Assembly (NCBI RefSeq): GCF_004331285.1
Contig: NZ_SJOH01000001.1
Span: 62,001-126,000 of the forward strand
DNA from: Acinetobacter sp. ANC 3781
GTDB lineage: Bacteria > Pseudomonadota > Gammaproteobacteria > Pseudomonadales > Moraxellaceae
Direction of reading: 5' to 3'
DNA: 64,000 nt
This document shows, piece after piece, positions 23,453-43,639 of this stretch. How positions within the stretch are numbered: the first letter of the stretch is position 1; each line of letters begins with the position of its first letter. The translations under genes were made by a program, and so were the position numbers. The notes beneath the pieces are model-generated. The model saw nothing but the letters and a program-made list of their open reading frames with translations, made no database searches and was not told the origin of the DNA.

Positions 23453-24194
23453 GATTTATTTTTAAAAGTTGTAAATACGCTTGATCTTTAGCTACTTTGT
23501 TTAATTTTGTTAATATTAGATTTAAATAAGGAATTAAAAATTAATTTTTATCCATGCTAATGATTTGATTAGATAATATATCGACTCTTTCATTTTATCC
23601 TCACTTCTAAATTTAAAATTAGAACAATCCTATCTCATTATTTTTACAATATTTTATATTTCTTACACTTTAATCCGCCGTTTTTTTCAACACTTAAATA
23701 AAGAGGGACAGTGCGCCATTTTGGGGATCAGGGCTAGATAGCCTTCGCTTTTATTGATGCTCTTTTATTAAGCACAGCTTCAACTAATCAAATCTTAATA
23801 CAAATCTAAATTACTTATGATTAATCTAATAGTTCACTTGAATTTTAGATTTTATTGATTTTATTAATTTTATTGATTTTATTGATTTTAAATTTGAATA
23901 CAGTCGCCATATTTAGATTTGCTTTTAATGATTGAAATAACGAATGATGAATTTCACTTAAGATAAAATGCAAATAAACCCGCCTATTCTCATCATGTGA
24001 TCCCTCTAAAATCATTATCATAGAAATAGTTCAGCCGAAAATGCTTATTTTTTGCTATGATTATTCACACTCCGTTTTTTATCCGTTTTAATAAGCTTTA
24101 TTGACATAAGGTTGCGCTCTGAAACTGGACATAACGTGAGTATTCCTGGACTATTCTAGCACATATAAGTGCATAAATTTCAATAGGTTAGCTC
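23453..24194. other. Host intergenic region that originally preceded trpG
   Basis: About 740 AT-rich bases with no ORF. The right end is immediately followed by the left remnant of the trpG start, so the native trpG promoter should be here, but no clear -35/-10 pair could be chosen. It includes a 9-base tandem repeat and an atypical less AT-rich patch around 23708-23755. Confidence 0.5.
23848..23890 (+). repeat. 9-base tandem repeat
   Basis: GATTTTATT repeated 4.8 times with one base change in the third copy (AATTTTATT). In the host segment upstream of attL. Confidence 0.85.
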
Positions 24195-24211
24195 ATGCTT
24201 TTAATGATCGA
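24195..24211 (+). other. attL: remnant of the original trpG start
   Basis: ATGCTTTTAATGATCGA resembles the first codons of trpG at the other end (ATGCTTCTCATGATCGA at 59940-59956). The last eight bases, ATGATCGA, are identical and are the likely crossover core. Upstream, ATTTCAATAGGTTA (24177-24190) parallels ATTTCAAGAGGTTA at 59918-59931. Left of the core is host DNA, right of it is phage. Confidence 0.82.
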
Positions 24212-24313: not shown

Positions 24314-24377
24314 TTGAATTAAACACTTTTGTGAGTAATATAGTGAGTAACAATACTCAAGTCATCGCGTTACTCAC
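24314..24377 (+). promoter_or_regulatory. int promoter overlapped by GTGAGTAA sites
   Basis: TTGAAT (24314-24319), 16 bases, TAATAT (24336-24341). GTGAGTAA occurs at 24331-24338 and 24343-24350, and inverted (TTACTCAC) at 24370-24377, abutting the int ATG. The first copy covers the -10. No Shine-Dalgarno is visible before int. Binding of Int or Xis here would repress int; this is inference. Confidence 0.55.
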
Positions 24378-25595
24378 ATGCTCAACGATACCAAGATAAA
24401 AAAACTAAAACCAATGGACAAACCTTATCGTATTGCAGACCAAGGTGGACTTTGTATTGAAGTCCGCTCAACTGGTGCAAAGCTCTGGCGTGTACGTTAT
24501 CGCTTCGCAGGTAAGGCATCCATGATTAGTTTGGGTGAGTATCCTATTATCGGTTTAGCTGAAGCAAGACAAAAACAAGAAGAAATAAAAACCTTACTCG
24601 CAAACAATATAGATCCAGCTGCACACCGTCAGCAGCAAAAATTGGATTTAAATAACATAGATAAAAATAGCTTTGCGATTATTGCGAATGAATATGCAGC
24701 TGAGCGACTAAGTGAAAAATCACAAACTTATATAGATGCTTTTCGCCGTTCCATGGAAAAAGATGTATTTGGTGTGATTGGTCATAAGAACATTAAAGAC
24801 GTTACATCGGCTGACGTGCTTAAGATTATGCAAAATACGGTCAAACGTGTGCAGGATCAGAACAACCGAGGCACTGGCGAAGTTACAGCAATTGAAAATA
24901 GAAAGAAGATTGGCTCTGTGATGAGGTATGCCATTGCGACATTAAGAGCTGAGAATGATCCGACCTATGCGGTACGTGAAGTGATTGAGCGCCCAGAGGT
25001 TGAGCATGCAAGGCCATTAACTTTAGCTGAACGAAAGTATTTTCGATCAAGAATTAAAAGTTATGGTGGTGCCGAGTCTACAGTGAATTCCATTCTATGC
25101 TTATTTTACACAATGCTTAGAACAGTTGAGATTAGACGCATGCAGTGGTCTTTTATTGACTTTGAAAACAAGACTATTACTTTTGAAAAGCAGACACGTG
25201 AACAGCTTAAAAAAGGCATGCGACTCACCAAGAAAAATAAGACGCATATTGTGCCGATGTCAGAACAGGTTTATCAAATTTTGCTGCGCCAAAAGAAATT
25301 AACAGGTCGTAAAAAGTATGTGTTTGAAGCTGTTTATAATGGCGGCATGATGCCAGCGACTACAATTAATAGAGCATTGCAGTACATCATGCAGAATGTC
25401 ACAGCGCATGATTTTAGAGCTACTGCATCAACTTTGTTAAATGAGCTTGGATATGATGAGAAATGGATTGAAAAGCAATTAGCTCACCAAGAAGCCAATA
25501 AAACCAAAGCGACTTACGACCATTCAAAGCACCTGACTGAACGCAGACAGATGCTTCAAGACTGGGCGGATATTATTGATAGCTGGGAAGAATAA
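24378..25595 (+). CDS. int: Tyrosine-type site-specific integrase
   Basis: A 405-residue recombinase with an N-terminal DUF4102 arm-binding domain (residues 1-85: LNDTKIKKLKPMDKPYRIAD to SLGEYPIIGLAEARQ) and a C-terminal catalytic domain. Catalytic residues: Arg248 in MLRTVEIRR, His344 and Arg347 in AHDFRAT, His370 in LAHQE and Tyr380 in ATYDHS. It lies just inside attL, transcribed away from it. It catalyses insertion into the trpG start and, with Xis, excision. Confidence 0.95.
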   Translation: MLNDTKIKKLKPMDKPYRIADQGGLCIEVRSTGAKLWRVRYRFAGKASMISLGEYPIIGLAEARQKQEEIKTLLANNIDPAAHRQQQKLDLNNIDKNSFAIIANEYAAERLSEKSQTYIDAFRRSMEKDVFGVIGHKNIKDVTSADVLKIMQNTVKRVQDQNNRGTGEVTAIENRKKIGSVMRYAIATLRAENDPTYAVREVIERPEVEHARPLTLAERKYFRSRIKSYGGAESTVNSILCLFYTMLRTVEIRRMQWSFIDFENKTITFEKQTREQLKKGMRLTKKNKTHIVPMSEQVYQILLRQKKLTGRKKYVFEAVYNGGMMPATTINRALQYIMQNVTAHDFRATASTLLNELGYDEKWIEKQLAHQEANKTKATYDHSKHLTERRQMLQDWADIIDSWEE

Positions 25596-25619: not shown

Positions 25620-26411
25620 TCACTTTGAATACTTAATCAAAATCATTGCCACAGCTTTAGCAGCAGTCCAGTACTTCGCATTAAATTGTGCCAATTCAGC
25701 TTCATTTGAAATAAAACCAAGCTCTACAATTAAACCACCATTACTGATAAATCCAAGTTTTCCACGTGCTGATTGTGATTGATCAATCCAGCCATTATCG
25801 CCACGCAATCGACTGCCAAAAACGTCTGCTACAGCTTTAGATAGCTCTTGAGCCAGTTTCTTATCTTTGGGTAATGCAATGGTTTCAATGCCATTCGCTT
25901 GCTTTGATGCCGCAGCATTCATGTGGAATTCAACTGCTACGGATGATCCTTTAATCAGTTTAATTGCTGAGTTTAAGTCTTGGTTGAGTGTGCCAGCACC
26001 ATCCGTTTTGTATTGAATACCTGCCTCACGTAAATAATATGCGACTGCATTGCGAAATTGAGAAACCAGTTCGGCTTCTTTAAATTTGCCATTTACTGCA
26101 CCAGGATCTTTATTAGAGTGCCCCGCTGTGACTGTGACGAATTGATTTACTTCATGTAATTCAGGTTGTGCACGTAACCGGGCAAAAATACCTAAGACGC
26201 TGCTTAAGAAACCTAACCAAGCAACCCATGAGTGCGGTAATAACTGTTTAATTTCTTCAGGAACCACAGCCCATAATTGAGGGAAATAAGTTCCAAATTG
26301 CCAAAGCAACTCAAAAGCAGCATACATGAAGATGTAGAAAAAGGCGCTAATTGCGCCCACTTGTACCGACTTGAGTTTCCAGGCCTGCTTCCAGTTATCG
26401 ATTAGTTTCAT
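25620..26411 (-). CDS. Endolysin: N-acetylmuramoyl-L-alanine amidase with N-terminal holin-like membrane region
   Basis: 263 residues. The N-terminal 90 contain two membrane segments (about 17-37 and 60-78), resembling small holin-like phage proteins. The C-terminal part from about 91 is an Amidase_3 domain: His98 in VTAGHSN, a Glu in KEAEL (112/114), His163 in VEFHMNA and catalytic Glu230 in LIVELGF. It should cut the amide bond between MurNAc and the stem peptide. The start overlaps the holin stop by four bases (ATGA). The fusion of membrane region and lysin is the notable point. Confidence 0.87.
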   Translation of the reverse strand: MKLIDNWKQAWKLKSVQVGAISAFFYIFMYAAFELLWQFGTYFPQLWAVVPEEIKQLLPHSWVAWLGFLSSVLGIFARLRAQPELHEVNQFVTVTAGHSNKDPGAVNGKFKEAELVSQFRNAVAYYLREAGIQYKTDGAGTLNQDLNSAIKLIKGSSVAVEFHMNAAASKQANGIETIALPKDKKLAQELSKAVADVFGSRLRGDNGWIDQSQSARGKLGFISNGGLIVELGFISNEAELAQFNAKYWTAAKAVAMILIKYSK

Positions 26412-26689
26412 TTAACACCCCATTTTGTAGATTGCGACTTAAGCCAGTTTTCAATAAATGTACTTCCCAAAATCCCCAGAGCTGATGCAATCGCAATCAA
26501 GGCTAGTGGGCTAATATCAGGAATTTGCAGAATGATGGCGCCTGCAATCGTTGATGTTGCTGCGCCTAAGATGGTTCTGCCAATTGTTAATCGCCAAGTC
26601 AGTTTTTCATCTGAAACAAGCAGCTTGGCAAAACCAATACATGCCCCGATTACGATAAGTAAAAGTAAATTTTTTTCATGCTCTTGCAT
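26408..26689 (-). CDS. Phage holin (LydA-like)
   Basis: A 93-residue membrane protein with three hydrophobic segments: LLLLIVIGACIGFAKLLVS, IGRTILGAATSTIAGAIIL and PLALIAIASALGILGSTFI. A short charged N-terminus (MQEHEKN) and basic C-terminus (KSQSTKWGVK) fit a class I-like holin of the LydA group. A run of seven G precedes the ATG as Shine-Dalgarno. It is followed by the endolysin with overlapping start. Confidence 0.82.
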   Translation of the reverse strand: MQEHEKNLLLLIVIGACIGFAKLLVSDEKLTWRLTIGRTILGAATSTIAGAIILQIPDISPLALIAIASALGILGSTFIENWLKSQSTKWGVK

Positions 26690-26712
26690 GAATCCCCCCC
26701 AATTTTTGACAT

Positions 26713-26746
26713 TAAAAAACCCCGATTTAACTTTAGATCAGGGTTG
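26713..26746 (-). terminator. Terminator after the tail spike gene
   Basis: On the minus strand AACCCTGAT and ATCGGGGTT form a nine-pair stem with one GT pair, followed by TTTT. It separates the tail spike from the lysis genes, which then need readthrough or their own promoter. Confidence 0.72.
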
Positions 26747-26764
26747 ATATGGTTTTGCTGTGTG

Positions 26765-29140
26765 TTAAAGCGATTCCATGAATTTAAGTATTTTTTGTCC
26801 GATGATTGCATGACCGAGATCATTCGGATGCACACCATCAGTCATGCAAGCATTTTGAAAAGGTATGCTCCACGCTTTAAAATTCGAATGATGATACAAA
26901 TCTAAAATCGGTAAACTATAGTGTTTTGCGTATCTAATCAGCTCATTTGCAATGTCTTCTAAGCTAACTCCATCCACATTTTTGGGTGGGTTTTCACCCC
27001 AATTGGGTGACGGAAACTCAATGCCACCCGCCCTGGTGCCGCGCGGTAAAGGTGTAATAATTCCAATTTTTGCAAGTGGATATGCTGCAAAAATATTTGT
27101 CAGTGTGAGATTAATAGCCCCTGATACTGTCAAGTGCGTTGAGCTTAAAAAATCACCCATTTCATAAGCTAGTCCACTTGCATTTCGCTCACGATTCAAA
27201 ACACCAAAGTCGTTTGTACCCATAAAAGGAATAATATAATCGGGGTTTTCTAAGGTGATATATGAAGCTGCAGTAGTGCGATTACCGAAGCCTGATGAGC
27301 TAACACCTAAGTTTTGAGTTGTCATGCCACCTACAGTTTCGACAATGATGTCGTGATAACGTTTAGTCGCCCAACCGTTAGCATCGTCAGTAATTGAGTC
27401 CCCAATCCACACCACACTTTTATTTTTTAAAATCGACACATACCCAGAACCTGCGCCACCATCCTCTAAAGCTTTAATTTTTTGCTGTGCCGCTTTATCC
27501 GTGACTGGAACACCGAGAATTTTAGTTACCTCAAGTGCTTCTAATTCCTCAATTACCAAGGTTGTTCGAATATCTAAAGTGAAGTTTGACCAAAGCGTAT
27601 TGATACAAGCTGACTTCATATTAGGTGGTGCAGTAAATATTTTTGTCGTTGCATCAATTTCAGTAAGAGTGACGAGCGTTTGTGGTTTACCACCGAAAAC
27701 ATCGGTTGTTGGACTTACAGAAACTGCAACATAAGCAGCACGTAAATCTGGTGCTTTGATTAAATATCGCTTACCTTCAGTGATATTAAATTGCGCTATA
27801 TCAGTACCAGTTGCAGTACGTAGTAAACCATTTGCAGGGGTTACATTTAATCCAGTATGTGCAACTTTGGCTACAGCAGGACCAGTATAAGAGGGAAGTA
27901 CATCAGATCGAACAACCACACCTGCAGCATCTAGGTCGTCCAGTCTTTTTTGTGCACTTGAATCAAAGACACCCACCCCATTTGCTTGCTTTACAACATA
28001 CTCAATTGTTGAGCCTTCCTGCACAACTAATGAACCACGAATATCAAAACTAAAGTTTGGCCACAATACATTTATGAAAGCAAACTTCATATTTGCAGGG
28101 ACAGTGAATGTCTTGATATTCGGATCTGCTGTGCTGTTTAGTGTTGCAAGTGTATTTTGCTTACCACCTGAGACGCTATTTGTTGTGCTATAGCTGACAA
28201 TTAAATAAGCAGAACGAACATCTGCTGCATAAAGTGCGTAAGTTTTACCTGCTTCTACTGCTACTGATGTAATTGCATTCCCTGCTTGGCCGATAATAAA
28301 ACCATCCGCAGGTCTTAAATAAAACCCAGAAGTATTATTAGCCGAGTTATACATATTTTCTCTCAAAACTGTAGGCAGTAGGCTTTTTGTGAAGTTATTT
28401 GACTGTGTGATTGGGTCATAAACTGACTTGGTGAATACAACCCCATCCCACTGCCAATCCCCATTATTTGAAGACGTTGCGTCATTGGTTACAGTGACTT
28501 TGAAGTTTGCAGGAATATTGGCTTTATCTGCATCCATAAGTGCGTAGGTTTTGTATCCCTTGTTTCCTACACCAATTACATTCACTTGTGTCTGTAAATT
28601 CTGTTCAGCTTCAATAGCACGATCTTTTTCAACTTGAACTGAGTATTCTAAATTTTGTTCGACAGAATAAGCACGTAAAGCTTCTTGATTTATTAGAATT
28701 GAATTTGCTGCATCACCGGCTATGCGAGCTAATATTTCAGCAGGTAAGCCATTAATATTGCCATTAATTAATTGATCGATAAGTTCTTGAAACTTTATTT
28801 GAGTTAAAGAATTTTGAAGAGCAAATTCTTGTAGTACTCGCCATATTTGATCAAAATCAACATTTATTGATTGAGGGCGCAATGAATTATCATAAGTTTG
28901 ATAGTCACTAGTTCTTGATAAAGTACTATTACGCTTAATTGCAATTAATGAATTAACAGGTGGTGCAATTAAAAATTTAATATAACCATCTATTAATTCC
29001 CACTCACCCACCAATGGCTCTATTTCATTTATTGTGACAATAAGCTCACTATCATTTATGCAATAAAATCCTAGAGCAAACTCAGTTGTACTGCCGTTCG
29101 CTACATACTCAATGTATGGCGTTTCTTCAGGTACTGCCAT
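26765..29140 (-). CDS. Tail spike/fibre with C-terminal SGNH-type esterase domain
   Basis: 791 residues. The N-terminal 120 residues (YIEYVANGSTTEFALGFYC and SRTSDYQTYDNSLRPQS) match the T7 gp17-type tail-attachment region; a coiled-coil stretch follows near 150-200. Residues about 273-380 and 430-535 are two copies of one beta-rich domain (DVRSAYL / DLRAAYV, NMKFAFINVLWPNFSFDIR / NMKSACINTLWSNFTLDIR). The C-terminal domain has SGNH motifs: GDS in VWIGDSITDD (about 578), GTND in PFMGTNDFG (about 640) and DGVHPND (about 770). It probably deacylates a surface polysaccharide during adsorption. Confidence 0.85.
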   Translation of the reverse strand: MAVPEETPYIEYVANGSTTEFALGFYCINDSELIVTINEIEPLVGEWELIDGYIKFLIAPPVNSLIAIKRNSTLSRTSDYQTYDNSLRPQSINVDFDQIWRVLQEFALQNSLTQIKFQELIDQLINGNINGLPAEILARIAGDAANSILINQEALRAYSVEQNLEYSVQVEKDRAIEAEQNLQTQVNVIGVGNKGYKTYALMDADKANIPANFKVTVTNDATSSNNGDWQWDGVVFTKSVYDPITQSNNFTKSLLPTVLRENMYNSANNTSGFYLRPADGFIIGQAGNAITSVAVEAGKTYALYAADVRSAYLIVSYSTTNSVSGGKQNTLATLNSTADPNIKTFTVPANMKFAFINVLWPNFSFDIRGSLVVQEGSTIEYVVKQANGVGVFDSSAQKRLDDLDAAGVVVRSDVLPSYTGPAVAKVAHTGLNVTPANGLLRTATGTDIAQFNITEGKRYLIKAPDLRAAYVAVSVSPTTDVFGGKPQTLVTLTEIDATTKIFTAPPNMKSACINTLWSNFTLDIRTTLVIEELEALEVTKILGVPVTDKAAQQKIKALEDGGAGSGYVSILKNKSVVWIGDSITDDANGWATKRYHDIIVETVGGMTTQNLGVSSSGFGNRTTAASYITLENPDYIIPFMGTNDFGVLNRERNASGLAYEMGDFLSSTHLTVSGAINLTLTNIFAAYPLAKIGIITPLPRGTRAGGIEFPSPNWGENPPKNVDGVSLEDIANELIRYAKHYSLPILDLYHHSNFKAWSIPFQNACMTDGVHPNDLGHAIIGQKILKFMESL

Positions 29141-29150
29141 GATTTATCCC

Positions 29151-30800
29151 CTAATCGAAATCTAAGGCGGCTTCAACTTCACCACCGTTTGTCCTCCAAT
29201 TAGGCGATTCATGGGCTTCGTTTTGTCTGTGTATTTTACCGATGCGTTCTGGTGAATCAGTGACGGCACCCGCCAAAGAATCCAGATCATCATCTGGTTG
29301 TTCAGTAACTGCAGGGTTGAACATGCGCATATTTTTGTACTGCCTTGAGCTATTTTCACCTTCTTCCGGCGTATCAATGACTGAGGTATGCACCCATAAC
29401 AAACCTGACATTAATGGGCCTTCTAGTGCTTCCAAAATGCGTTTATTTTTATTACCGGTATTGTGCTGTTCTTTCACCCCGCAACGAATACGTCGTGCTT
29501 TCAGTGCGCCTTTTAAAGCTGCAGGTGCGAAGTTACCAATGCCATTGGTTTCAATTGTTAAGCTCGGAACATTGAATTGCTCAATCAGGTCGCATAATTG
29601 CCATACTTGACCACCAGTGATATTTCCATGTGCATCATGTGTGACAACTTCACCAGTCAGTGCAATAGATCTGTGCCAGTACTTCACGCCAAAGTCATCA
29701 TGTAGAACTAAAGCCACGGATGAAATATCCGATTTAAGCTTGCCGGATGATGGGTCCCATCGCATGGTAAGACCAACAATCTGACGATCACCCAGCATCA
29801 TGATGTATTTACCATTGGCACGTCTTAAAACTGGCTCACAGTCATAAGGAATCATCTTGTCAGGATCAAGACGCACATCACCAATAGGCTTGGCATGCAT
29901 CTGATACTGTGAATCCCATTCATTCAGGGTTCGACACTCTTTGCGACGCTTATCCATTTCTGTATCAGTAAAACGTTCAGGCCATAGCGATTCACTGTAT
30001 AGGTCAATCAGATAATGGGTTTCCTTGAACATGATCTTGAAAGCAGCACCAATCTTATGAATAAAGTAATCCTGGTCTCTTTTGAGTAGTCGTGCTGTAT
30101 TGCTAATACCGCTAAAAATATAAACCGGATCAAAATCACTTAAACATTCAGTGATATTTTCAAATCGTTTTTCTTTTTCAAACATACGCAAAATCATACA
30201 TTTCGCTCCTAGTTTTTGAATCTGCGTGTATAGGGAATCGTGCGTATGCGGTGTGCCGACAAATAGCTTTTGTCCACCTGGTATTAGAATGTGAGTTTGT
30301 TCAGATAGGCGATAACGTAGTTTTTCACGTGCTTCTGGTGTGCCGATGTTGGAAGGCATTTCCACGTCATCGTTTTGGATCTCGTTAGCGCGTGCACCAG
30401 TAACGTTGGAAAGAACACCGCGTGCATGAATAGAGCCGTGACGTACATCACTCGAGCCACTGATCCACCATTTTTGCAGTTCACCACGTGCTTTATGCAC
30501 ACCAAATAATTGGCACAGTGGATGCTTCTCAACAACCTGTTCAGTGCCTCGACTGGCTTTTGCTGCATCCTTGTCCGTTGCCGCCTGGTGCAGAATTAAA
30601 TGCTCATTACTGCAGTACAGCTTCCATGCGTTATAGATATCCAGAATCGTAGATTTACCGTGACCACGTGGCATCATCAATAAGCCAAGCGGCCCGTAAT
30701 CCTCCAAGAAATCACAGACATCTAAATGGAAATCCGGCACTTCCCAATTCATGGCTTCCGCATAAATCAGAAAGAACGCAGCAAAGCTGACCTTAATCAT
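29151..30800 (-). CDS. Terminase large subunit
   Basis: A 549-residue T7 gp19-like packaging motor. Walker A is PRGHGKST at residues 44-51, close to the N-terminus as in this family. Further motifs are NVTGARANEIQNDDVE (Walker B region) and a C-terminal nuclease domain with WDPSSGK, IETNGIGNF and DDDLDSLAGAV, whose Asp residues are the expected metal ligands. It cuts and packages phage DNA with the upstream small protein. It is followed after ten bases by the tail spike gene. Confidence 0.93.
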   Translation of the reverse strand: MIKVSFAAFFLIYAEAMNWEVPDFHLDVCDFLEDYGPLGLLMMPRGHGKSTILDIYNAWKLYCSNEHLILHQAATDKDAAKASRGTEQVVEKHPLCQLFGVHKARGELQKWWISGSSDVRHGSIHARGVLSNVTGARANEIQNDDVEMPSNIGTPEAREKLRYRLSEQTHILIPGGQKLFVGTPHTHDSLYTQIQKLGAKCMILRMFEKEKRFENITECLSDFDPVYIFSGISNTARLLKRDQDYFIHKIGAAFKIMFKETHYLIDLYSESLWPERFTDTEMDKRRKECRTLNEWDSQYQMHAKPIGDVRLDPDKMIPYDCEPVLRRANGKYIMMLGDRQIVGLTMRWDPSSGKLKSDISSVALVLHDDFGVKYWHRSIALTGEVVTHDAHGNITGGQVWQLCDLIEQFNVPSLTIETNGIGNFAPAALKGALKARRIRCGVKEQHNTGNKNKRILEALEGPLMSGLLWVHTSVIDTPEEGENSSRQYKNMRMFNPAVTEQPDDDLDSLAGAVTDSPERIGKIHRQNEAHESPNWRTNGGEVEAALDFD

Positions 30801-30803
30801 GAA

Positions 30804-31139
30804 TTAGCTCGGACGCTGTTTGCGTTCTTCTAACTTTTTAGCCACGCTTTCAAGCAGTTTAGCTGCCTGTGCCTCTGCCGAAATATTGCGACCATCTGTA
30901 CTACCAGTGGTTTGCTCATCATCAAACAATACGCGCTTTAATTTCTCCAAGCATGTCAGGGCTTCTTTTGCGCCTTTGTACAGCCAAACTTTGTCACCTC
31001 GCCCTTCTTTGTCAAAAATGTCTTTACCGTATGCTTCTGTGAGTAAATCCACCGCATCGATTGAGGCCATCTCTAAACAAAGCTCCAATTTCTCTTTGGT
31101 TTCAGGCTTTAACTTTCCAGTTTTCTTTTCGTCACGCAT
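30804..31139 (-). CDS. Probable terminase small subunit
   Basis: A 111-residue highly charged protein ending three bases before terL. The assignment rests mainly on size, charge and position. It begins MRDEKKTGKLKPETKEKLELC and contains a long helical region with ISAEAQAAKLLESVAKKLEERK. GGGGG in the arm of the upstream hairpin, eight bases from ATG, is its likely Shine-Dalgarno. Confidence 0.65.
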   Translation of the reverse strand: MRDEKKTGKLKPETKEKLELCLEMASIDAVDLLTEAYGKDIFDKEGRGDKVWLYKGAKEALTCLEKLKRVLFDDEQTTGSTDGRNISAEAQAAKLLESVAKKLEERKQRPS

Positions 31140-31142
31140 ATA

Positions 31143-31176
31143 AAAATCCCCCGTATAAATTACTTATACGAGGGAT
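31143..31176 (-). terminator. Terminator/RBS element before the terminase genes
   Basis: On the minus strand ATCCCTCGTATAA and TTATACGGGGGAT pair over 13 bases with one GT pair, followed by TTTTTAT. GGGGG of the 3' arm is also the Shine-Dalgarno of the next gene, eight bases from its ATG. Confidence 0.7.
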
Positions 31177-31198
31177 CAGGTGGAGGTTTGTTGGGTGT

Positions 31199-31456
31199 TT
31201 AGTCTTTCGGCTCTTCACCAATAATCTTTTTACCCGATTTGTCAAAATAGTATGGCTTATATGAATTAATGCAGTTTAAGTAAATCAAATAGATTGCCAG
31301 TGCAACCGGAATGATATTCCAAGGCGATAAATAATTGATGTAGTGATTTTCAGACCATGCAACCAACATTGGAGCACCAAACAAAAAAGCAATAATCCCA
31401 AGCGCAGGCACGTGATCAAAATAATAATGCTTGCCTTTATATTTCCATTTAATCAT
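31199..31456 (-). CDS. Small two-span membrane protein
   Basis: 85 residues with two membrane segments (VPALGIIAFLFGAPMLVAW and NIIPVALAIYLIYLNCI) and a Lys/Asp-rich tail. Start overlaps the stop of the ejection protein gene by four bases (ATGA). Location between virion and terminase genes could mean a role in ejection or lysis, but nothing in the sequence decides it. Confidence 0.65.
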   Translation of the reverse strand: MIKWKYKGKHYYFDHVPALGIIAFLFGAPMLVAWSENHYINYLSPWNIIPVALAIYLIYLNCINSYKPYYFDKSGKKIIGEEPKD

Positions 31457-33981
31457 TGAACCACCCTCTCAAAATCCGGAGCCTGAATATCGCCAATATC
31501 ATCACCTAACCAGCGAGTTCGGCCATGCTCACGCTCAGCCTTACGCAATAATTTTTCTCTATAGCCTGGTGCAATCATATCTTGAAATTCATCGAAAACC
31601 ATACGATTTGTTGCAGCCTTGGTGTACCACAAATTTTGAGCAGGAACTTTACCTTTAAGGTACTTAAACGCCTCATTGCCTGCATTGGTTTCTGTGCCAT
31701 TAGACATTTGAGTTGCATTGCCTACTGTTAAATTTAATAGGGTTTTAAAGTCTGAACCGAATGGACCACCTAAGAAATCGGTTGCATCACGTCCACTGGC
31801 GTCCATACCTGCAACTAAAATATCACCAAGTACTGGCAGACCACCACCGGCTACAAATGAACGCTTAAAGAACTCTAAAGACTTTTCCGGATCTTCACTA
31901 TCCCACATTGTTAATGGATCATTACCGTTTACCAGTTCTTTTAGTTGAACAACCAAACCGCCTAAAACAGTGGTCATAGCAATCAATGAAGCAGCATAAG
32001 CAGCTTTGCCGCCCAAGGTTGGTTGAGCCATTGCACGTGAACCGTGACGCATTAAGAATGATGCAGAGAATGATTTAAATTGCAGCATGGATTTTACAAT
32101 CTCGCCCATAGCTGTTCCCTTTCTCAGACCAGGTGTCATAAAGGTACGTTCACGCAGTCCGGCTTCAACAACTGCCATGCCTTGCTCATCTAGTAAATGG
32201 GCCTGAAACTGGGATGCAATTTCATCTTTTACTTTTTGCGGATTACCAAACTTAGTTAATTGCTCATCTGGAATTTCATAGATAGAACGAGCCGACATAA
32301 GCTGATTGCCTTTACGGTCCACAACTGGATCAGCCAGGCGCATTACTTCCCATGCACGTTCACTCAATCCGGTTTTTTCCATGAGCTCACGATCATCTGC
32401 ATGTAGGTCTGACCATGCTTTGTCACGGCTTAAACGTCCGTATTTCTCCATCAGCATTTTACTAAAGCCAACTTTTGAAGCTGCTGTTAATGCATTAAGT
32501 CCAGAAACACGCATGACCTGTGAAGCAATACCACTTGATACACGTGCTAACTTTTGAGATTTACCATGTACCGAAGTCAGACCATCATCCGACCATCGTG
32601 CAATAGATCCAAGCATTTCTTCAGTAGCTAAACCTAAGCTGTGTGCCAGTTCACGATCTTCTGAATTTTTAGGATTCAATTGTGTAAGTAATTCACCAAA
32701 GGTTTTACGGAATGCAATGTTGTGAATAGAAGCAGTTTTGGCAATCATTGCCTGATCGGTGATAGATGAAAGTGTGGTACCACCCAACATCGATGCAACA
32801 TTCATAGAGCGATACGCCAAGCCTAAATTAGCCAGTACTTCTGACTGTGGTGTGTTCTGCCCTGAAAACTCATCAAACATGGTTTGTGCGCGTTTACGTG
32901 ATTTACCTGTGACATTGGCATCAACACCTTTTGCCCAATCTTTTTTCTCTGCTGCATCCATCAAAATACGCATGGCATTACGTGGATTACTTCCCAAGTT
33001 TTCAACCAGTGCAATATCTTTAGATAATCCATTTATGTGCGCCTCCACCAGATCTACAAAAGGCATACCACCAAAATCAGATTGGTAATCTAACCAGGCA
33101 TCGGCATCTTTAAAATGCAGTACACGACTTTCAGAATGACGACTGGTTACTTTGGATGATGAACCACCTGCAGCTTGACGACCTATTTCAGTCTTGTTTG
33201 CACCATTACTGGTGAGCGTATCAAACGAGTATTCAAGCAATTCACGAATCTGTTGTTGAGAATAAAATGAACCATCCTCATGCACGTATTTGGATGTATC
33301 AATCAGGCTTTCAGCTTTGTTTACCCATGCATCTTTCCCGGCAATAGCGATTTTTTGTAAGTCATGTGTTTGTGGCAATCCCCAATCATCAAGCTTACCA
33401 ATGTCACCACCCGATCTATTGAACCGCTGACGCATACCTTCAAATACATCGCCCATCTTGTCGCTGATCTTCTTGGCCAAAGCATCGCCAGTGTCTTGTC
33501 CAAAACGTTCACGTACAATTTTTTGAACTAAATCTGCATCAGTAAATATACCTAAACCGCCTTTGATATTGGTGTAGAAGTCCACCAGATCACCACGGTA
33601 AATTGAAGCAATGGCACGTGATTTAGAATCAATCGATTGAACCCCCGACATATCGCCATGCGGTGCCACTATTCGGTCTACAACTTCACTGGCGGTTAAG
33701 TTGGTATGATCTAAAGCAGCAAGGTTTTTAGATTGCGTTAAAATGTCTTGAGCCGCTATTTTATGCTTTCGTTTTAACTGTTCCTGAATATCGGTAGCAA
33801 CAAATTCACCGGCTTTCACCAACTTGTCTGCATCGGATAAATTGCGCCAATTCTGAATATCTTTTTTGGCTAAAGACTTCATAGCATCCTTGATCCGGTT
33901 TTCAATGTCCGTGGCTTCTTGTTGGTTTAATGATTGTTTGCCGAGAGCTTTGGCTACAGCTGCTTTGCATTGGTCTTTCAT
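31453..33981 (-). CDS. Large internal virion (ejection) protein
   Basis: 842 residues, largely helical, Ala- and Asp-rich, without signal peptide. Two Gly/Ala-rich hydrophobic stretches near the C-terminus (AAYAASLIAMTTVLGGLVVQL and FVAGGGLPVLGDILVAGMD) could insert in the membrane during DNA ejection. Its place as the last of three large proteins after the tail genes matches the internal core proteins of T7-type podoviruses (gp14, gp15, gp16 order), where gp16 is the largest. Homology is too weak to call by eye; the name is positional. Confidence 0.65.
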   Translation of the reverse strand: MKDQCKAAVAKALGKQSLNQQEATDIENRIKDAMKSLAKKDIQNWRNLSDADKLVKAGEFVATDIQEQLKRKHKIAAQDILTQSKNLAALDHTNLTASEVVDRIVAPHGDMSGVQSIDSKSRAIASIYRGDLVDFYTNIKGGLGIFTDADLVQKIVRERFGQDTGDALAKKISDKMGDVFEGMRQRFNRSGGDIGKLDDWGLPQTHDLQKIAIAGKDAWVNKAESLIDTSKYVHEDGSFYSQQQIRELLEYSFDTLTSNGANKTEIGRQAAGGSSSKVTSRHSESRVLHFKDADAWLDYQSDFGGMPFVDLVEAHINGLSKDIALVENLGSNPRNAMRILMDAAEKKDWAKGVDANVTGKSRKRAQTMFDEFSGQNTPQSEVLANLGLAYRSMNVASMLGGTTLSSITDQAMIAKTASIHNIAFRKTFGELLTQLNPKNSEDRELAHSLGLATEEMLGSIARWSDDGLTSVHGKSQKLARVSSGIASQVMRVSGLNALTAASKVGFSKMLMEKYGRLSRDKAWSDLHADDRELMEKTGLSERAWEVMRLADPVVDRKGNQLMSARSIYEIPDEQLTKFGNPQKVKDEIASQFQAHLLDEQGMAVVEAGLRERTFMTPGLRKGTAMGEIVKSMLQFKSFSASFLMRHGSRAMAQPTLGGKAAYAASLIAMTTVLGGLVVQLKELVNGNDPLTMWDSEDPEKSLEFFKRSFVAGGGLPVLGDILVAGMDASGRDATDFLGGPFGSDFKTLLNLTVGNATQMSNGTETNAGNEAFKYLKGKVPAQNLWYTKAATNRMVFDEFQDMIAPGYREKLLRKAEREHGRTRWLGDDIGDIQAPDFERVVQ

Positions 33982-33984
33982 TAT

Positions 33985-36870
33985 TTATTCTCCAAACTGT
34001 AGCGCACAGCTAATTGCTGCTTGTGTTGCAAGTGTGTCTTGTTCTGCTTGTTTTGCTTCGGCTTCCAACTCATCCAGACGTTCACGTAAGGTCATTGTGA
34101 TTTCTTCAACATTACCGTCAGGATCATAACGAGTCACACTGATATGTTGATCAGGGTTTTGCATGATGATATCTAATGCGGCTGATTCTTCTGGACCATC
34201 GCCAAACAGTGAACCTTGTCGCGGATCTCCCATAGATTCAATTTCATCTATTCGGCTTTGGATGTTTTCACCAATTGCTTTTGCACTACGATTGTTTTGA
34301 TCAAATACATTTAAGAAATCACGCGCACCAGGTGCAAGTCCATCATCAATCAACTGGCCTTGATTTAAATAATCATCAACACGCATACCACTGGCTTTTA
34401 AATCACTCAGTTTTTGTGCTGCTTGTGCCAAGTCTTTGGCAATACTGTTTTGATGACGACCACCTTGTTTCACCAAAGCGTCTAACTGAGACAATTGTGG
34501 AGCTGCACGAAGCAAAGCATTAAGTACGGTCTTACTATCATCATCCAAGTTTTCAGCCAGTCTCGTTACAAGACTAGAATCACCGTATGCATGCTGAGCA
34601 ACGGCTGATTCAATACGACGTTTACCCTCTTGAGACAATCGACCATCACCAGTGATAACGCTGCCCTGTTCTGCTTTTGGTAACGATGCAATGAAGTTGC
34701 GAACATAGTCCATTGACTGATCTAAATTAATCGTACCGTCGCCATTAATTTGAAGAAGTGAAGCATCGGGCAAACGATCTACGTCACTGGCTGCACGCTC
34801 AGACGCGCTGAATTGCGACACATCGGACTCATTCGCTAACTTGGTGAATTGCACACGGTCTGTATCAGTAAGCCGTGTACGCACTAAAACAGGCTTATTA
34901 ATGCCTGATATATCCCAACCTCGATCCGCTGCATATTGTTCAATGTAGGCACGGTATTCTTCAGCGCGTCCATTTTCATAAGCTTTACCAATGGCCAGTG
35001 TTCGACCATTGCCTGATTCAACAACACCATCCATGCCGATGATTGGGGCACCGTTTGACAGCATGTTTGATTCACCTAGTAGTTCAGGACGTAAATCATT
35101 CGCCATATCCTCAATCTGCTGACGTGATGCTTCGCGTGTCCGATCACGTGGCTGCAATTCAGATGGGTAATTAGGATTTACGCCATATGCTGCATCATTT
35201 GATGCAATTAGTTCATCTAGTGATTTAACTTCATAGGCCATGTCATAGCTTGATCCATCCATGCCAATAGCGGTACTGGTGCCATTGCCGCCATAACGAG
35301 AACTAAGCCGATTCCACTTGGTTTGCCACTTGCCAATAGCCTGACCAACCGATAAGCCAGACATACCGTTATTGTTCACGATGGCATCGGCATTCTTAGA
35401 ATCATATTTACGGACAATATCAATCAGCTTTGCATTTGGGTCTGCTTTTAAAACTGCAGCTGCTCCACCCGGTCCAAGTAAGTGACCTAGATATTGCTCA
35501 TGGGCAACCGGATCACGTCCTAAACTTTTACGCATTGATGCATTAGCATTCTTAATGTGTTTTAAGCCTTGTTTGATTTGCTCATCAACGTTGTTCCGAT
35601 CACCACCGCCTTGACCCTTCCAAGTTTTATCAAGTACCTGAAACAAGCCGTGTGCGGTAGATTTTTTATTTTTGGCTGTATGGCTGAATGAGCCACCTGT
35701 TTCAAGATGGGAAATGGTTAATGCTACCGACGGATCTACGCCCTCTTGCTGTGCTCTACGTGCAATTGTTTTTGCATTGGTTGGTAAAGCCATAGAATCA
35801 TAATTAACAGGCTTTTGTTTTTCTTCACCTTTAACAGGATGAACCACATTCACCGGACGACCTGCTTTTAAGCTTTCAACTGCACCACTCATGTTTTTAA
35901 GATGGTTATTGTGCTGAATTGGGTCAGATGGTTTAACCGGTGCGGCTGCATCCTCAAGCTGCATTTCATTCAAAACCAATGCGGATTGAATTTGTGTATT
36001 TCTAGTCTCTAATGCATCTACATCAATATTATGTAGTTCTGCATCAATATCTTTATTTAAGCCTTGAGCATAACGACCTGCACCGAATAACAAGCCATTC
36101 AAGACAAGTTCAGTGCCGACACTTTCAGCGGTAATTTCATATTTTTTGGCTTGTTTATTGTAGTCCTCTGATTTGAGAATTTCCCCACTTAAAGCCTGAC
36201 CACCAGTAGATAACGCTGTTGCACCGCCAATAGACAATGCTGCATCTTTTACTAAACCGCCTGCGCCTTTAAAACCATAGTTAATAGGCAAAGCAGCCGA
36301 TGCACCTGCTACCACACCATCAATTACAGCAACCTTTGCAGCCGTACCAGAATCAACACCTTTATGCGTTAAATCTTCATAACTGTAATTGGTTTCAGAT
36401 AATCCGGTTGTAGCAACCGCACCCACGGGACCACCTGCCAAGCTACCAAGTACTGCACGTGTGGCAAAGTCAGAAACACCAAAACCGATATTGCCGATCA
36501 GCCCTGTATTTTCTTTATCTTCAAGCTGCTCAATTTCCATGACCAACTTGTTTTGACGTTCTTTATTTTTATCAGCATGAATTTCGGAAAATGATGGCTC
36601 ACGTACATCAAGCGCCCCATCTAAACCACCGTTTAATGTGTCGTTGACAGAATATCCAATGTGGTCAGCAACACGTTCAAAAGGCTTGGCAACCGTATCA
36701 ACAACTTTTACCGCACCCGCTAAAGCACCCCGCGGGATAGCTGAGCCAGCACCATCAAATAAGCCAGGCTCTTTTTTTTGTTGGGTTGCTTTATGTGCAA
36801 TCCCTTTGGCGTTGAGCTGATCGACCTGCAGCTGATCTTCACCTGAATATTCTGACAGCCAGTTACTCAT
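33985..36870 (-). CDS. Ejection protein with lytic transglycosylase and DdrB/ParB-like domains
   Basis: 961 residues. Residues about 370-520 form a soluble lytic transglycosylase domain: ARRAQQEGVDPSVALTISHLETGG (catalytic Glu about 388), then AHGLFQVLDKTWKGQGGG and YLGHLLGPGGAAAVL. Residues about 570-800 read like the DdrB-type ParB domain: RQQIEDMANDLRPELLG, APIIGMDGVVESGNGRTLA, KPVLVRTRL and FTKLANESDVSQFSASERA. The C-terminal 150 residues are coiled-coil-like. The Gly/Ala-rich region near 130-230 looks hydrophobic. It should open the wall for DNA entry; the ParB-like part may bind or shield the entering DNA (inference). Confidence 0.82.
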   Translation of the reverse strand: MSNWLSEYSGEDQLQVDQLNAKGIAHKATQQKKEPGLFDGAGSAIPRGALAGAVKVVDTVAKPFERVADHIGYSVNDTLNGGLDGALDVREPSFSEIHADKNKERQNKLVMEIEQLEDKENTGLIGNIGFGVSDFATRAVLGSLAGGPVGAVATTGLSETNYSYEDLTHKGVDSGTAAKVAVIDGVVAGASAALPINYGFKGAGGLVKDAALSIGGATALSTGGQALSGEILKSEDYNKQAKKYEITAESVGTELVLNGLLFGAGRYAQGLNKDIDAELHNIDVDALETRNTQIQSALVLNEMQLEDAAAPVKPSDPIQHNNHLKNMSGAVESLKAGRPVNVVHPVKGEEKQKPVNYDSMALPTNAKTIARRAQQEGVDPSVALTISHLETGGSFSHTAKNKKSTAHGLFQVLDKTWKGQGGGDRNNVDEQIKQGLKHIKNANASMRKSLGRDPVAHEQYLGHLLGPGGAAAVLKADPNAKLIDIVRKYDSKNADAIVNNNGMSGLSVGQAIGKWQTKWNRLSSRYGGNGTSTAIGMDGSSYDMAYEVKSLDELIASNDAAYGVNPNYPSELQPRDRTREASRQQIEDMANDLRPELLGESNMLSNGAPIIGMDGVVESGNGRTLAIGKAYENGRAEEYRAYIEQYAADRGWDISGINKPVLVRTRLTDTDRVQFTKLANESDVSQFSASERAASDVDRLPDASLLQINGDGTINLDQSMDYVRNFIASLPKAEQGSVITGDGRLSQEGKRRIESAVAQHAYGDSSLVTRLAENLDDDSKTVLNALLRAAPQLSQLDALVKQGGRHQNSIAKDLAQAAQKLSDLKASGMRVDDYLNQGQLIDDGLAPGARDFLNVFDQNNRSAKAIGENIQSRIDEIESMGDPRQGSLFGDGPEESAALDIIMQNPDQHISVTRYDPDGNVEEITMTLRERLDELEAEAKQAEQDTLATQAAISCALQFGE

Positions 36871-38927
36871 TACTTGGTTGCTCCTTTGATATTGATACGC
36901 CAGTAATTACCGCCCGATTGCAACGGATTACCACGTTCATTGATCAAATCATATTGAATTTCACCCTTTGCAGAACGCTTATCCGAACGACGTAAACGAA
37001 AACCTTCAAGATCAGATACTGGAATACCTGTATTTTTTGAAATTGTCGCATAGCCGCTTTCTAGGTGATTGTTAAATACATCATCTCTCATGCCGTATGG
37101 TTTGGATACTTTCCAATTCTTTTGATTACCATATTTCACTGGTTGCTCGTACACACCACCAGTCGCCATGCTTAATGCTGTTTTTGCTAAAGAATCGCTA
37201 ATATCATCCTTATCTTTATGCTGATAGTTATCACGTTCAGTAAGGTGAGCATAAATAGATTTAAAGCCTGAAAACGTCATGTTGGCGGTATTACCGGAAG
37301 CGGAATTACCCACATATTCATTAAATTTTTGCTTCAGTAGTTCATCTTTCGGCATAAGCATTTGCTTGTTTTTAAGTGCCTGTGTACCACTCACAATTGC
37401 AGTTGCTACATCTTCACCTTTATCTGATTTAAAGCCATTCATACGTGCAATGCCTGCCAAGATATATGACTGGTCGCCACCGCCTAACTGACCCAAAGTA
37501 GCCCCCCAGATTGCATGACCTTTTGTGCCGTATTTTTTTGCATTGGAAACCAAGCCGCCAATGAAATTGATTTTGTCATTTACCCCCATGCCTTCGAAAG
37601 CCTTTTTAGCTTCAGGTAAATCCTCGGCAGAAATTGGTGCAAGTTTTATATTTGCATCTTTAAGGGCTAACTGGCTTGTACCATTATCAATCGCTTTTTG
37701 TGTCCAGGAAGAAGGATTGGTTTTTAATTCAGTAGCACTGAGCTCATTAACTTTCAGCCCTATTTCACGTACCGCTTGATTTGGATTATCTTTGAGTAAA
37801 CTTAGCTTCTCCTGGTATAAACTTTCATACACACCCAAAACCTTTTCTTCAGTCACAGCATCACTGGTTGTACTGTTCTTCATTTTGGCTTTTTGCTGAT
37901 TAATCAGCTCTAACATTTGACTGGTAGACTTACGGCCAAAGCTTTGAAAGTTGGTAGACTGTTGCTTATAAAATTGATATTCCGCTTCATGCTCAGTACC
38001 TTTTACCGCAGTACCTACATTCACCAGATAATCATCATCCAAGGCACGACCAGTCAAAACCTGAGATTTAAACTCATTAAATACCTTGCCTGATTCTGTT
38101 TTTCGTTTATTTTCCTCAACTTCAACTTGTTTGGTAATGGCATCAATTCGGCTTAAAGCCTGTGCTTTCTTTTGCTGCGCCGTTGCACCGTCAAGATATG
38201 CATACTTGCCACCATCTAAATCAGTAATTAAGCCTTGTAGTCTTGCCGTATCTTTAGCTGATACAGCATCACTAATGACCCCATCGACTGACATCAAGTT
38301 ACGAGTGGATTTGTATTTTTGGCGCATCTCACCCTTAGCGGCTTCAGATATATCAGCGGTGCTTAGATAGGTATCTAAATATTCCTCACCCTGTTTTTCT
38401 TCATAACGAGTTGCAATATCAAAAGCACGATCCACCAATTGAACAGACTTTTGAGCATCAGCACGAAGTTGTAACGGTAAAAAGCCGGGTGCCTGCTTAA
38501 TCACGTTTTCATCCCAGTATTGCTTTAACTGTTTTTGAGCATGACCAGGCATTTCATTTTCAAGCTGCTTATAACGATCTTGTGACCATTTCTGCAAAGT
38601 CGCATTTGCATCTTGGGCTTTTAGTGCTCCATTGGATACATCGTTTTTAAGCAATGTCACCTGCTCGTTCATTTCAGTAGTAAGCGTATCATCAAGCTTG
38701 ATTTTGGCTTCTTGTTCGTCAATCTTGTTGTTGTGCAACTCCAAAACCTTAGCTGATACTTCTGCTTTTTCCTGTTCTTGCTGTAGGTTTTGCGCTCGCT
38801 TACCAGTAACTTGAGAAATATTCTGCAATGCACCTACAATCATCTGACCCGTTTGATTTTGTGGCATTTGGATACGATCAATACTGGGCATCGCATTACC
38901 AAAATTACCCATCGGAATTTTAGCCAT
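36870..38927 (-). CDS. Internal virion protein (T7 gp15-like position)
   Basis: A 685-residue, mostly helical, Lys/Gln-rich protein with no signal peptide or enzyme motif. ATG 38927 overlaps the stop of the preceding gene (TAATG) and has GGTGG upstream; the frame extends to a GTG at 38936. Its stop overlaps the start of the transglycosylase gene by one base. By position it is the middle ejection protein. Confidence 0.7.
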   Translation of the reverse strand: MAKIPMGNFGNAMPSIDRIQMPQNQTGQMIVGALQNISQVTGKRAQNLQQEQEKAEVSAKVLELHNNKIDEQEAKIKLDDTLTTEMNEQVTLLKNDVSNGALKAQDANATLQKWSQDRYKQLENEMPGHAQKQLKQYWDENVIKQAPGFLPLQLRADAQKSVQLVDRAFDIATRYEEKQGEEYLDTYLSTADISEAAKGEMRQKYKSTRNLMSVDGVISDAVSAKDTARLQGLITDLDGGKYAYLDGATAQQKKAQALSRIDAITKQVEVEENKRKTESGKVFNEFKSQVLTGRALDDDYLVNVGTAVKGTEHEAEYQFYKQQSTNFQSFGRKSTSQMLELINQQKAKMKNSTTSDAVTEEKVLGVYESLYQEKLSLLKDNPNQAVREIGLKVNELSATELKTNPSSWTQKAIDNGTSQLALKDANIKLAPISAEDLPEAKKAFEGMGVNDKINFIGGLVSNAKKYGTKGHAIWGATLGQLGGGDQSYILAGIARMNGFKSDKGEDVATAIVSGTQALKNKQMLMPKDELLKQKFNEYVGNSASGNTANMTFSGFKSIYAHLTERDNYQHKDKDDISDSLAKTALSMATGGVYEQPVKYGNQKNWKVSKPYGMRDDVFNNHLESGYATISKNTGIPVSDLEGFRLRRSDKRSAKGEIQYDLINERGNPLQSGGNYWRINIKGATK

Positions 38928-39352
38928 TATTTCCACCCATTTTTAGTATTTAAACCAGCCGAAACGCTATTTAAGACACCTGTAGCTGCTGCTGTATTGG
39001 CATTACTTCTATGCTGACTAGCCGCGGCTTTTAATTGTTGTGATGAGTTATAGCCTGTAATTTCAGCCATATTCGCATCATAGTTACCTGCTCTTTCAAT
39101 CTCATCATTGATGACAATTGATGTACCTTCATTCACATCAAGCCCATTTCCTGCAAGTGCTGCACGTGCTGTTGACTGAGCCTTTTCCTTTTCCTTGCGG
39201 ATACGTTCAGCTTCTAATCGCCCACGTGCTGATTGTGCTCTACCATCGGCTTCAGCTTGTTCTTCCATGCCTTTGTTAGAGTTGTATGCTGAAATACCTG
39301 CAATAGCCGTACTTGCTACTGCTGCCACTGCTGCTACTGCCATCCACGACAT
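38927..39352 (-). CDS. Internal virion protein B-like
   Basis: A 141-residue Ala-rich protein with an N-terminal hydrophobic stretch (MAVAAVAAVASTAIAGISAY) followed by a charged helical domain: AEADGRAQSARGRLEAERIRKE, ALAGNGLDVNEGTS and NYDANMAEITGYNSSQQL. This layout matches T7 gp14-type internal virion protein B. One-base-overlap start and stop with both neighbours show tight translational coupling. Confidence 0.82.
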   Translation of the reverse strand: MSWMAVAAVAAVASTAIAGISAYNSNKGMEEQAEADGRAQSARGRLEAERIRKEKEKAQSTARAALAGNGLDVNEGTSIVINDEIERAGNYDANMAEITGYNSSQQLKAAASQHRSNANTAAATGVLNSVSAGLNTKNGWK

Positions 39353-39837
39353 TATTCAATCTCCTTACATTTGCTTGGAAGTGATGCAAGGAATTGATCA
39401 ATCTCATCATCCGGTACAATTACTTGCTGCTCAATGATTTCTAAATCTGTTTCATTGGTCGGATGCACCGTGATCCATGAACTATCTTCATGAAAATAAC
39501 CAATGCGTTTTGTTCCTGGCATGGATTTTAAAACAACCGGTGCCTTCAATAATTCAATGCCGTTTTCAGTAGCGACGGTTAGAGATCCAGTGAGCAAGAT
39601 ATTCATATGCTCCGTACGGTGCATTTTGCTAACGACAAGAGTTCCTGCTTTAGCATCCATCTGGCGCATATAAACACCAGGTGCAAAGTGGTGAACTACA
39701 GGCACATCAATCAATTCAGCATTATCGGTAATTTGCTGCTGAACATTACGGACTACGTCGATATAAGCCTTGTTTTGAATATCGCCTAAGATATGAGCCA
39801 AAAGCCCAGTATTATCCGGTGAAATAATATCGCTCAT
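39352..39837 (-). CDS. Cupin-like phage protein
   Basis: 161 residues with a single beta-barrel region: HHFAPGVYMRQMDAKAGTLVVSKMH, RTEHMNILLTGSLTVATENG and YFHEDSSWITVHP. His residues at strand edges resemble a cupin metal site. ATG 39837 has GGAG eight bases upstream and overlaps the stop of the GNAT gene (ATGA). It sits between tail and internal virion genes, so a structural or virion-modifying role is possible; function unproven. Confidence 0.65.
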   Translation of the reverse strand: MSDIISPDNTGLLAHILGDIQNKAYIDVVRNVQQQITDNAELIDVPVVHHFAPGVYMRQMDAKAGTLVVSKMHRTEHMNILLTGSLTVATENGIELLKAPVVLKSMPGTKRIGYFHEDSSWITVHPTNETDLEIIEQQVIVPDDEIDQFLASLPSKCKEIE

Positions 39838-40289
39838 GCTTTTAGCTCCAAATCCAATACTGTGCCGTATTCGGTGAATCCAAAGTGTTTGTACAAACGA
39901 ATGCATGCCGCCGATTCAACGCCTGTTGTGGTACCACACTGGATACGATCAGCACCCATCAATTGTGCCCATCGGATAAACGCTTGAATCAGCATGTAAG
40001 CTGCTCTGGATTTTCTAAACTCAGGTGCTACATACAGCACATCATCAAATGCAATTTTTATATCGTTGAACCAGTCACCACCTATACGACCCACAAAACC
40101 ACCAATGATTTGCTCCTGATGCTCAACTAGAAAGATCACACCGCCACCCTTAATTAAACTGGTGAAGTGCTTTTCTGCATGCTCAGTAACGTAAGGACGG
40201 CTTTGATAATTTGGCGCTTCTTTAATAAATTCCTGCCCCAATGCGACCATTGCAGGCACATCGGGAAGCGTTGCTACACGTAATCGCAT
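39834..40289 (-). CDS. GNAT-family N-acetyltransferase
   Basis: 151 residues with the GNAT fold: N-terminal MRLRVATLPDVPAMVALG, the central beta strands IIGGFVGRIGGDWF and VLYVAPEFRKSRAAYMLI (motif A acetyl-CoA loop, less canonical than RGxGxG), and a C-terminal CIRLYKHFGFTEYG. The substrate is unknown. It lies inside the virion operon between tail tube B and the cupin-like gene, an unusual place for an enzyme. Confidence 0.82.
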   Translation of the reverse strand: MRLRVATLPDVPAMVALGQEFIKEAPNYQSRPYVTEHAEKHFTSLIKGGGVIFLVEHQEQIIGGFVGRIGGDWFNDIKIAFDDVLYVAPEFRKSRAAYMLIQAFIRWAQLMGADRIQCGTTTGVESAACIRLYKHFGFTEYGTVLDLELKA

Positions 40290-40291
40290 GG

Positions 40292-42924: not shown

Positions 42925-42925
42925 A

Positions 42926-42964
42926 GAAAAAGCCCTCAAGTTTTAATGATCTTGAAGGCTTTTA
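42926..42964 (-). terminator. Terminator/RBS element before tail genes
   Basis: On the minus strand AAAAGCCTTCAAG pairs with CTTGAGGGCTTTT (two GT pairs) around a ten-base loop and runs into CTTTTTC. GAGGG in the 3' arm is the Shine-Dalgarno of tail tubular protein A. Confidence 0.75.
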
Positions 42965-42989
42965 AGGTTTGGTTTGTTGGGTGTTAGAG

Positions 42990-43460: not shown

Positions 43461-43461
43461 C

Positions 43462-43575: not shown

Positions 43576-43591
43576 TTTGGCTGCTCCTTAT

Positions 43592-43626
43592 AAAAAAGAC
43601 CTCACACCCTGCTCAGAGGTGTGAAG
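43592..43626 (-). terminator. Terminator after the capsid gene
   Basis: On the minus strand TTCACACC-tctgagca-GGGTGTGAG (core CACACC/GGTGTG) followed by GTCTTTTTT. It would limit transcription of the tail genes relative to capsid. Confidence 0.75.
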
Positions 43627-43639
43627 CCAAAGTTGACTG

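Follow-up and report, generated by a model that had tools for sequence, protein, structure and literature searches.

A temperate prophage inserted at codons 4-6 of trpG in Acinetobacter sp. ANC 3781 supplies the gene with a replacement start

In Acinetobacter sp. ANC 3781, codons 4-6 of trpG hold a prophage of ~35.7 kb (measured between two 8-bp cores), and the DNA of the element encodes a replacement 5' end of the gene, in frame. The window is the whole stretch of DNA that was analysed (64,000 nucleotides, positions 62,001 to 126,000 of contig NZ_SJOH01000001.1), and all coordinates refer to it. Integration of a temperate phage at these codons with rebuilding of the trpG start is the best explanation, with a probability of about 0.9. 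The insertion site, the crossover region, the replaced start and the kept frame are established at the level of sequence. The features are the following.

24120..24203, + strand: host trpG leader with codons 1-3, now cut off from the gene (left half of attB), matching the trpG leader of the prophage-free genomes G085, G147 and G130
24204..24211, + strand: attL core ATGATCGA, the only exact common core, placed by empty-site comparison
24331..24378, no strand assigned: left-end putative integrase-arm repeats, two copies of GTGAGTAA (24331, 24343) plus an inverted copy at 24370-24378
24378..25595, + strand: tyrosine integrase, 405 aa (Pfam Arm-DNA-bind_3, Phage_int_M, Phage_integrase)
25620..59550, no strand assigned: prophage body, with amidase, holin, tail, head, head-tail, replication, repressor, antirepressor and annealing genes (protein scans)
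59547..59822, + strand: excisionase-like protein (phrog_9834, E 1.1e-34)
59813..59836, + strand: intrinsic terminator separating trpG from the excisionase operon
59867..59886, + strand: arm-like repeats at the right end, GTGAGTAA twice, 12 bp apart, at the same position in other phage-type leaders
59919..59931, + strand: TTTCAAGAGGTTA, candidate ribosome site overlapping a putative IHF-like match with one mismatch
59940..59948, + strand: phage-supplied trpG codons 1-3 (ATG CTT CTC); the native form, CTT TTA, stands at the left end and in the empty relatives
59949..59956, + strand: attR core ATGATCGA, trpG codons 4-6, the right copy, placed by empty-site comparison
59940..60524, + strand: trpG, 194 aa (Pfam GATase, E 4.3e-59)

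Both att stretches quoted in the earlier note are present as quoted. The left copy reads ATTTCAATAGGTTA-gctc-ATGCTTTTAATGATCGA, with an ATG at 24195 and the core at 24204-24211, followed by AAATAACC. The right copy reads ATTTCAAGAGGTTA-catcgaat-ATGCTTCTCATGATCGA, with an ATG at 59940 and the core at 59949-59956, after which the trpG frame goes on. As the note had stated, the frame continues after the right copy only (translation from the left ATG gives MLLMIENNHYN and then a stop, 11 codons), and the 8 bases of ATGATCGA are the only fully shared stretch. The left and right 17-mers differ solely in the second Leu codon, TTA vs CTC. ATGCTTCTNATGATCGA occurs once in the window, with 0 occurrences expected in shuffles. 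The resemblance of the two copies exceeds chance because the ends are flanked by an integrase gene (starting 167 bp past the left core), an excisionase-like gene (ending at 59822, 117 bp ahead of the right ATG) and paired GTGAGTAA repeats, 12 bp apart, inside both prophage ends.

The element is a temperate tailed phage with a tyrosine integrase, and its integrase, repressor, excisionase, head and tail genes lie between attL and attR. The repressor is of the S24 type, the antirepressor of the KilAC type and the annealing protein Sak-like; a major head protein, a head-tail adaptor, tail proteins and a replication initiation protein were also identified, gene names being taken from scans of 19 window proteins rather than of every open reading frame. 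For the structural region (30800-52900), no close relative was found among 50,697 phage records, the best of which covered 18% at 73%. Elsewhere in the window, four tRNA-Asn genes are spread across 4.6 kb (14402-18959).

Three relatives, G147, G085 and G130, lack the prophage and show the empty site; their trpG is 91%, 92% and 87% identical, respectively, to that of this genome. In all three, the leader of the left flank runs straight into trpG via ATGCTTTTAATGATCGACAA. This is the attB that had been predicted, with the left upstream region joined to trpG at the core. The left flank (21000-24211) aligned in one piece in G147 (86%) and G085 (85%) and in two pieces in G130. On the right side, similarity begins at 59919 in G147 and G085 and at 59914 in G130; therefore 59840-59913 is unmatched in these relatives. 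The empty-site comparison thus indicates that codons 1-3 and the leader now standing before trpG came with the phage, and that the crossover took place within ATGATCGA. The attB site falls within the first codons of the trpG reading frame, and the non-native codons 1-3 are present in phage YMC11/11/R3177. The Shine-Dalgarno, ATG and synonymous Leu codon that the phage had been said to carry are found as the same set in R3177.

In R3177 (Vieuvirus), leader-ATGCTTCTAATGATCGA is followed by phage sequence and has phage genes on both sides, an arrangement consistent with attP. Phage TPWB-05 displays the same leader and ATGCTTCTAATGATCGA motif 742 bp from the end of its record, so that its attP is less certain than that of R3177. 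As in the prophage described here, leader and ATGCTTCTAATGATCGA adjoin a related integrase in both phages, but these integrases are 54% (R3177) and 50% (TPWB-05) identical to the present one. In R3177, CTTCT and AGAAG stand on either side of the core; this inverted repeat, weaker in the prophage described here, would predict TGATCGA as the overlap.

Sequence comparison shows that the tyrosine integrase of a temperate phage recombined attP at codons 4-6 of trpG, the conserved Met-Ile-Asp, and that strand exchange fell within the 8 bp of the core. The host leader and the first three codons were left at the far left end, before the integrase. The phage brought a ribosome site, an ATG and two synonymous Leu codons, so that TrpG still begins with MLLMID. 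The phage segment probably descends from a captured trpG leader and would double as an attP arm, in the order arm repeats, possible IHF site overlapping the ribosome site, and core. Excision would restore native trpG, and after decay of the element the phage-type leader would remain as the start of trpG.

Thirty loci with related integrases were compared. A trpG-type core was present near the integrase in 14 and absent within 1.5 kb in the other 16, indicating that these enzymes are not all trpG-specific. The integrase subfamily may favour the 5' ends of genes. Pairing of attL with attR covered 18 genomes, namely these 14 loci plus G080, G099, G110 and G064 (regions chosen near trpG). The 8-bp core was identical in attL and attR in 18/18 genomes with attL found, variants ATGGTCGA and ATGATTGA included; this agreement is supportive rather than independent, because the attL search pattern fixed 6 of the 8 core positions. 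Integrase (a fragment in G064) and trpG are on one contig in 16/18 genomes and split in G032 and G129. G081 holds a 7.3-kb prophage remnant (L061, 3004-10307) that retains both att cores, an integrase (96% identical) and an excisionase, and G064 holds a 0.9-kb remnant.

Some related integrases, including part of the 16 without a trpG core, have other neighbours, named here by reading of translations. They lie at the start of surE-like (L048, L050, L051) or ybaK-like genes (L039, L040, L042, L044, L045), near a coaD-like gene (L053-L055, L057) or near an icd-like gene (L049, L056). At L052 and L200 (G049:C23), a related integrase adjoins the start of a second trpG/pabA-like gene and points away from it.

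trpG was found in 148 of 149 Acinetobacter genomes, with no match in G029 (65% complete). Leaders were called phage-type when they carried two GTGAGTA-like integrase-arm repeats at a fixed distance. On this basis the 148 loci comprise 56 (strict) to 68 (loose) phage-type leaders, 60 native leaders and 20 that are neither, a range being given because 6/59 native leaders and one leader of both types (G073, counted as native) pass the loose arm test, and because G072, one of the leaders moved by the loose rule, looks native. The first classing rule left 33/147 leaders unclear; G119 and G070 were set to phage-type by reading, and the looser arm rule moved 12 of the 32 remaining unclear leaders to phage-type. 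Excluded before counting were the trpG-like gene in G049 and, in G134, a further trpG match located at the end of a contig; second matches in G001 and G114 are outside the listing and the count. Among leaders with an arm score of at least 12 (n=61), 55 have the arm at one of two adjacent offsets; single weak arm cases are unsafe, since shuffles have their 99% point at 13, slightly above the 12-point threshold.

Codons 1-3 encode Met-Leu-Leu in 68/68 loose phage-type and 60/60 native leaders, and ten different hexamers encode the two Leu residues among the former. With the excisionase of this phage as query, homologues were detected just upstream of 22/56 strict phage-type, 3/32 unclear and 0/59 native leaders (25/148 loci in total). 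A terminator-like hairpin lies ahead of 40/54 phage-type vs 9/59 native leaders. Within a reach of 1.5-2 kb, the gene upstream of native leaders is glnA in 51/60 and aminopeptidase P in 0/60; for loose phage-type leaders it is aminopeptidase P in 14/68, glnA in 9/68 and neither in 45/68. Clustering at 70% ungapped identity gave 36 phage-type and 28 native clusters, only a rough guide to the number of independent replacements, as leader types were compared without a species tree. The site is genus-wide and not a one-off, and phages seem to have entered trpG many times in Acinetobacter.

Upstream of the ribosome site, most native leaders also share a conserved palindrome, AGCAC..GTGC (24156-24170 in the window), which no longer stands before trpG after integration. 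A role of this palindrome as a trp operator was not supported: at one mismatch or fewer it has 27 places in this genome, two of them exact, and the second exact one (the only further place inspected) is located immediately downstream of a ring-cleavage dioxygenase gene, by reading of its translation, and not at a trp gene. A consensus of the phage sequence right of the core was likewise set aside, chance matches being mixed in.

According to the earlier note, the resemblance of the two copies extends upstream into the ribosome-site region. It does, and it fits an IHF-type site as well, so that translation may not be the sole reason for it. The motif ATTTCAA.AGGTTA could even owe its conservation chiefly to IHF binding in recombination, the ribosome site being a by-product. 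In support of this, the geometry of the phage segment is rigid, with the site at -21 in 63/68 phage-type leaders, while native leaders vary (-18 is commonest, 31/60), and the IHF consensus is perfect in 9/68 phage-type vs 0/60 native leaders. However, native leaders, which have no att role, match nearly equally (one mismatch in 47/60, vs none or one in 55/68 phage-type leaders), and roles in recombination and translation can coexist. We therefore regard a primarily recombinational motif as unlikely, if worth keeping in mind. The AGG-to-ATG distance is 11 nt in 43/54 phage-type and 8 nt in 37/59 native leaders. The attP layout may be lambda-like, with arm-like repeats on both sides; the IHF-like match is imperfect and occurs in native leaders too, and the IHF reading of the motif is only suggestive.

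In the preferred reading, integration with a rebuilt start, trpG would be transcribed from a start in the ~105 bp between the terminator and the ATG. Integration might instead have left trpG weak or silent in the lysogen, because the old promoter is 36 kb off and a terminator (59813-59836) precedes the gene. Moreover, no + strand promoter signal was found between this terminator and the trpG ATG, and across the genus none rose above shuffles in leaders of either type: sigma-70 scoring gave 5.40 for phage-type leaders vs 5.26 (sd 0.16) for shuffles and 5.01 for native leaders vs 5.14 (sd 0.18), and simpler promoter scans of the leaders gave nothing better. Nevertheless, the frame is kept in 68/68 leaders of the loose set and an SD-like motif is present in 52/54. 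TrpG has no other close homologue in this genome (two further matches are 23% and 26% identical), and trpG is among the genes that the consulted text of PMC12604733 lists as needed in vivo in A. baumannii, so that expression in the lysogen is likely kept. A weak or silent gene thus appears improbable.

Some phage-type leaders with no related integrase nearby look like scars. A leader of the type ATGAGGTTAAGTTCATC-ATGCTTCTA is common to ten genomes (one cluster), and an exact search for it in named genomes returned six records: A. calcoaceticus (two), A. nosocomialis, A. pittii (two) and Acinetobacter sp. WC-141. Among the matches listed, none of the ten genomes has an integrase match of at least 40% identity upstream of trpG; G004 and G053 lack any integrase match, and in G061 a match (54%) lies on the other side of trpG. 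An attL core was not found by pattern in six named loci of the A. calcoaceticus-baumannii complex. Excisionase-tail-like frames precede the terminator in G034, G046 and G145 (translated by eye in the latter two). In viral contigs, 12 attL-like sites (counted by eye) carry the same scar leader, which suggests that phages re-enter it, and the A. baumannii prophage Ab105-3phi has a scar-type leader at attL, beside an annotated Xaa-Pro aminopeptidase.

In four scar-leader genomes, G004, G053, G007 and G046 (L329-L332), glnA is 4.4-5.2 kb upstream of trpG, and homology to native loci stops after glnA and resumes at about the trpG start; the added stretch carries a transporter and aminopeptidase P. 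In A. calcoaceticus DSM 30006 (L310), the glnA-trpG gap holds a transporter (POT-type, by reading) and aminopeptidase P, and ends at a scar-type leader; the aminopeptidase P frame (600 aa) stops ~300 bp short of trpG, and no frame of 80 aa or more intervenes. This aminopeptidase P has no match at E 1e-100 in 108/149 genomes, including the present one, and the peptide-transporter/aminopeptidase P module is missing beside trpG in most sampled genomes.

The earlier note had named a prophage-free relative with a leader of the 59840-59939 type as evidence against its reading. No such leader is present in the three empty relatives; to the letter, it does occur in some genomes without a visible prophage. 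We read these leaders as scars because the genomes belong to other species, the leaders bear arm-like repeats, and in several the excisionase tail or the terminator survives. That they represent instead an old native form copied by phages has little probability: the ribosome-site region is similar in both leader types, and G070 and G119 (L126, L156) carry a phage-type leader 617 bp from glnA, the native distance, with no visible phage genes between, which simple prophage decay hardly explains, but arm-like repeats at the att distance, excisionase-tail-like frames and terminators are parts of attR, and native leaders have glnA upstream in 51/60 and occur in the closest empty relatives. We know of no native use for arm repeats, excisionase tails or terminators in trpG leaders. 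In G049 the glnA distance is also native-like. The wider proposal, for which the chances appear evenly balanced, is that in Acinetobacter as a whole phages repeatedly overwrote the first codons of trpG together with its control region, and that several species of the complex now have a phage-derived, apparently fixed start and leader beside the transporter/aminopeptidase P module; we infer fixation from those members of the complex that the listing covered.

The mechanism is of a known kind. In the text consulted of PMC4482086, dusA-specific islands and prophages replace the 5' end of dusA. They share with the present case the insertion at the 5' end of a housekeeping gene, an element-supplied 5' end, imperfect att repeats and Acinetobacter among the hosts. 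They differ in their target, dusA instead of trpG, and in their 21-bp semiconserved repeats, instead of an 8-bp core in a 17-bp imperfect repeat. By its insertion in trpG, the element does not belong with the dusA-specific integrase family. In E. coli, prophage HK022, at torS/torT, replaces the control of torS (PMC6814406, part consulted): as here, a gene loses contact with its native control region and receives a substitute from the prophage. For HK022, a phage promoter was mapped and shown to alter host behaviour, whereas here it is the coding start that is replaced.

One of the top three prophage sites of A. baumannii was named in 2025, by its adjacent genes, as 'aminopeptidase P / aminodeoxychorismate-anthranilate synthase component II' (PMC11998280), and its right-hand gene is the same, trpG. 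The main text consulted there makes no mention of insertion inside the reading frame or of a rebuilt start. The earlier statement that insertion at a 5' end is less common than use of tRNA 3' ends should be softened, as the site is found across the genus and its neighbourhood was already a listed hotspot. In Pseudomonas aeruginosa, a pyocin cluster is located between trpE and trpG (PMC11577772) and a predicted prophage includes trpG (PMC12456005); the portions of these two texts consulted do not describe the arrangement at the trpG start. No description of the rebuilt trpG start was found in the open-access literature consulted, article texts as distinct from supplements. New here are the precise position of the crossover, the reconstructed start of trpG, the arrangement of the att sites and the scars.

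Altogether, these results mean that a phage can use a coding site that is conserved and needed while leaving the gene intact. They suggest that a start brought by a phage may persist after the phage itself is gone and become permanent for a core biosynthetic gene. If a phage-derived start is indeed fixed in species of the complex, control of the tryptophan/folate gene trpG may have changed hands. The empty site, the prophage, the 7-kb and 1-kb remnants and the scar form a natural series for testing whether swaps of this kind alter the control of a core pathway.
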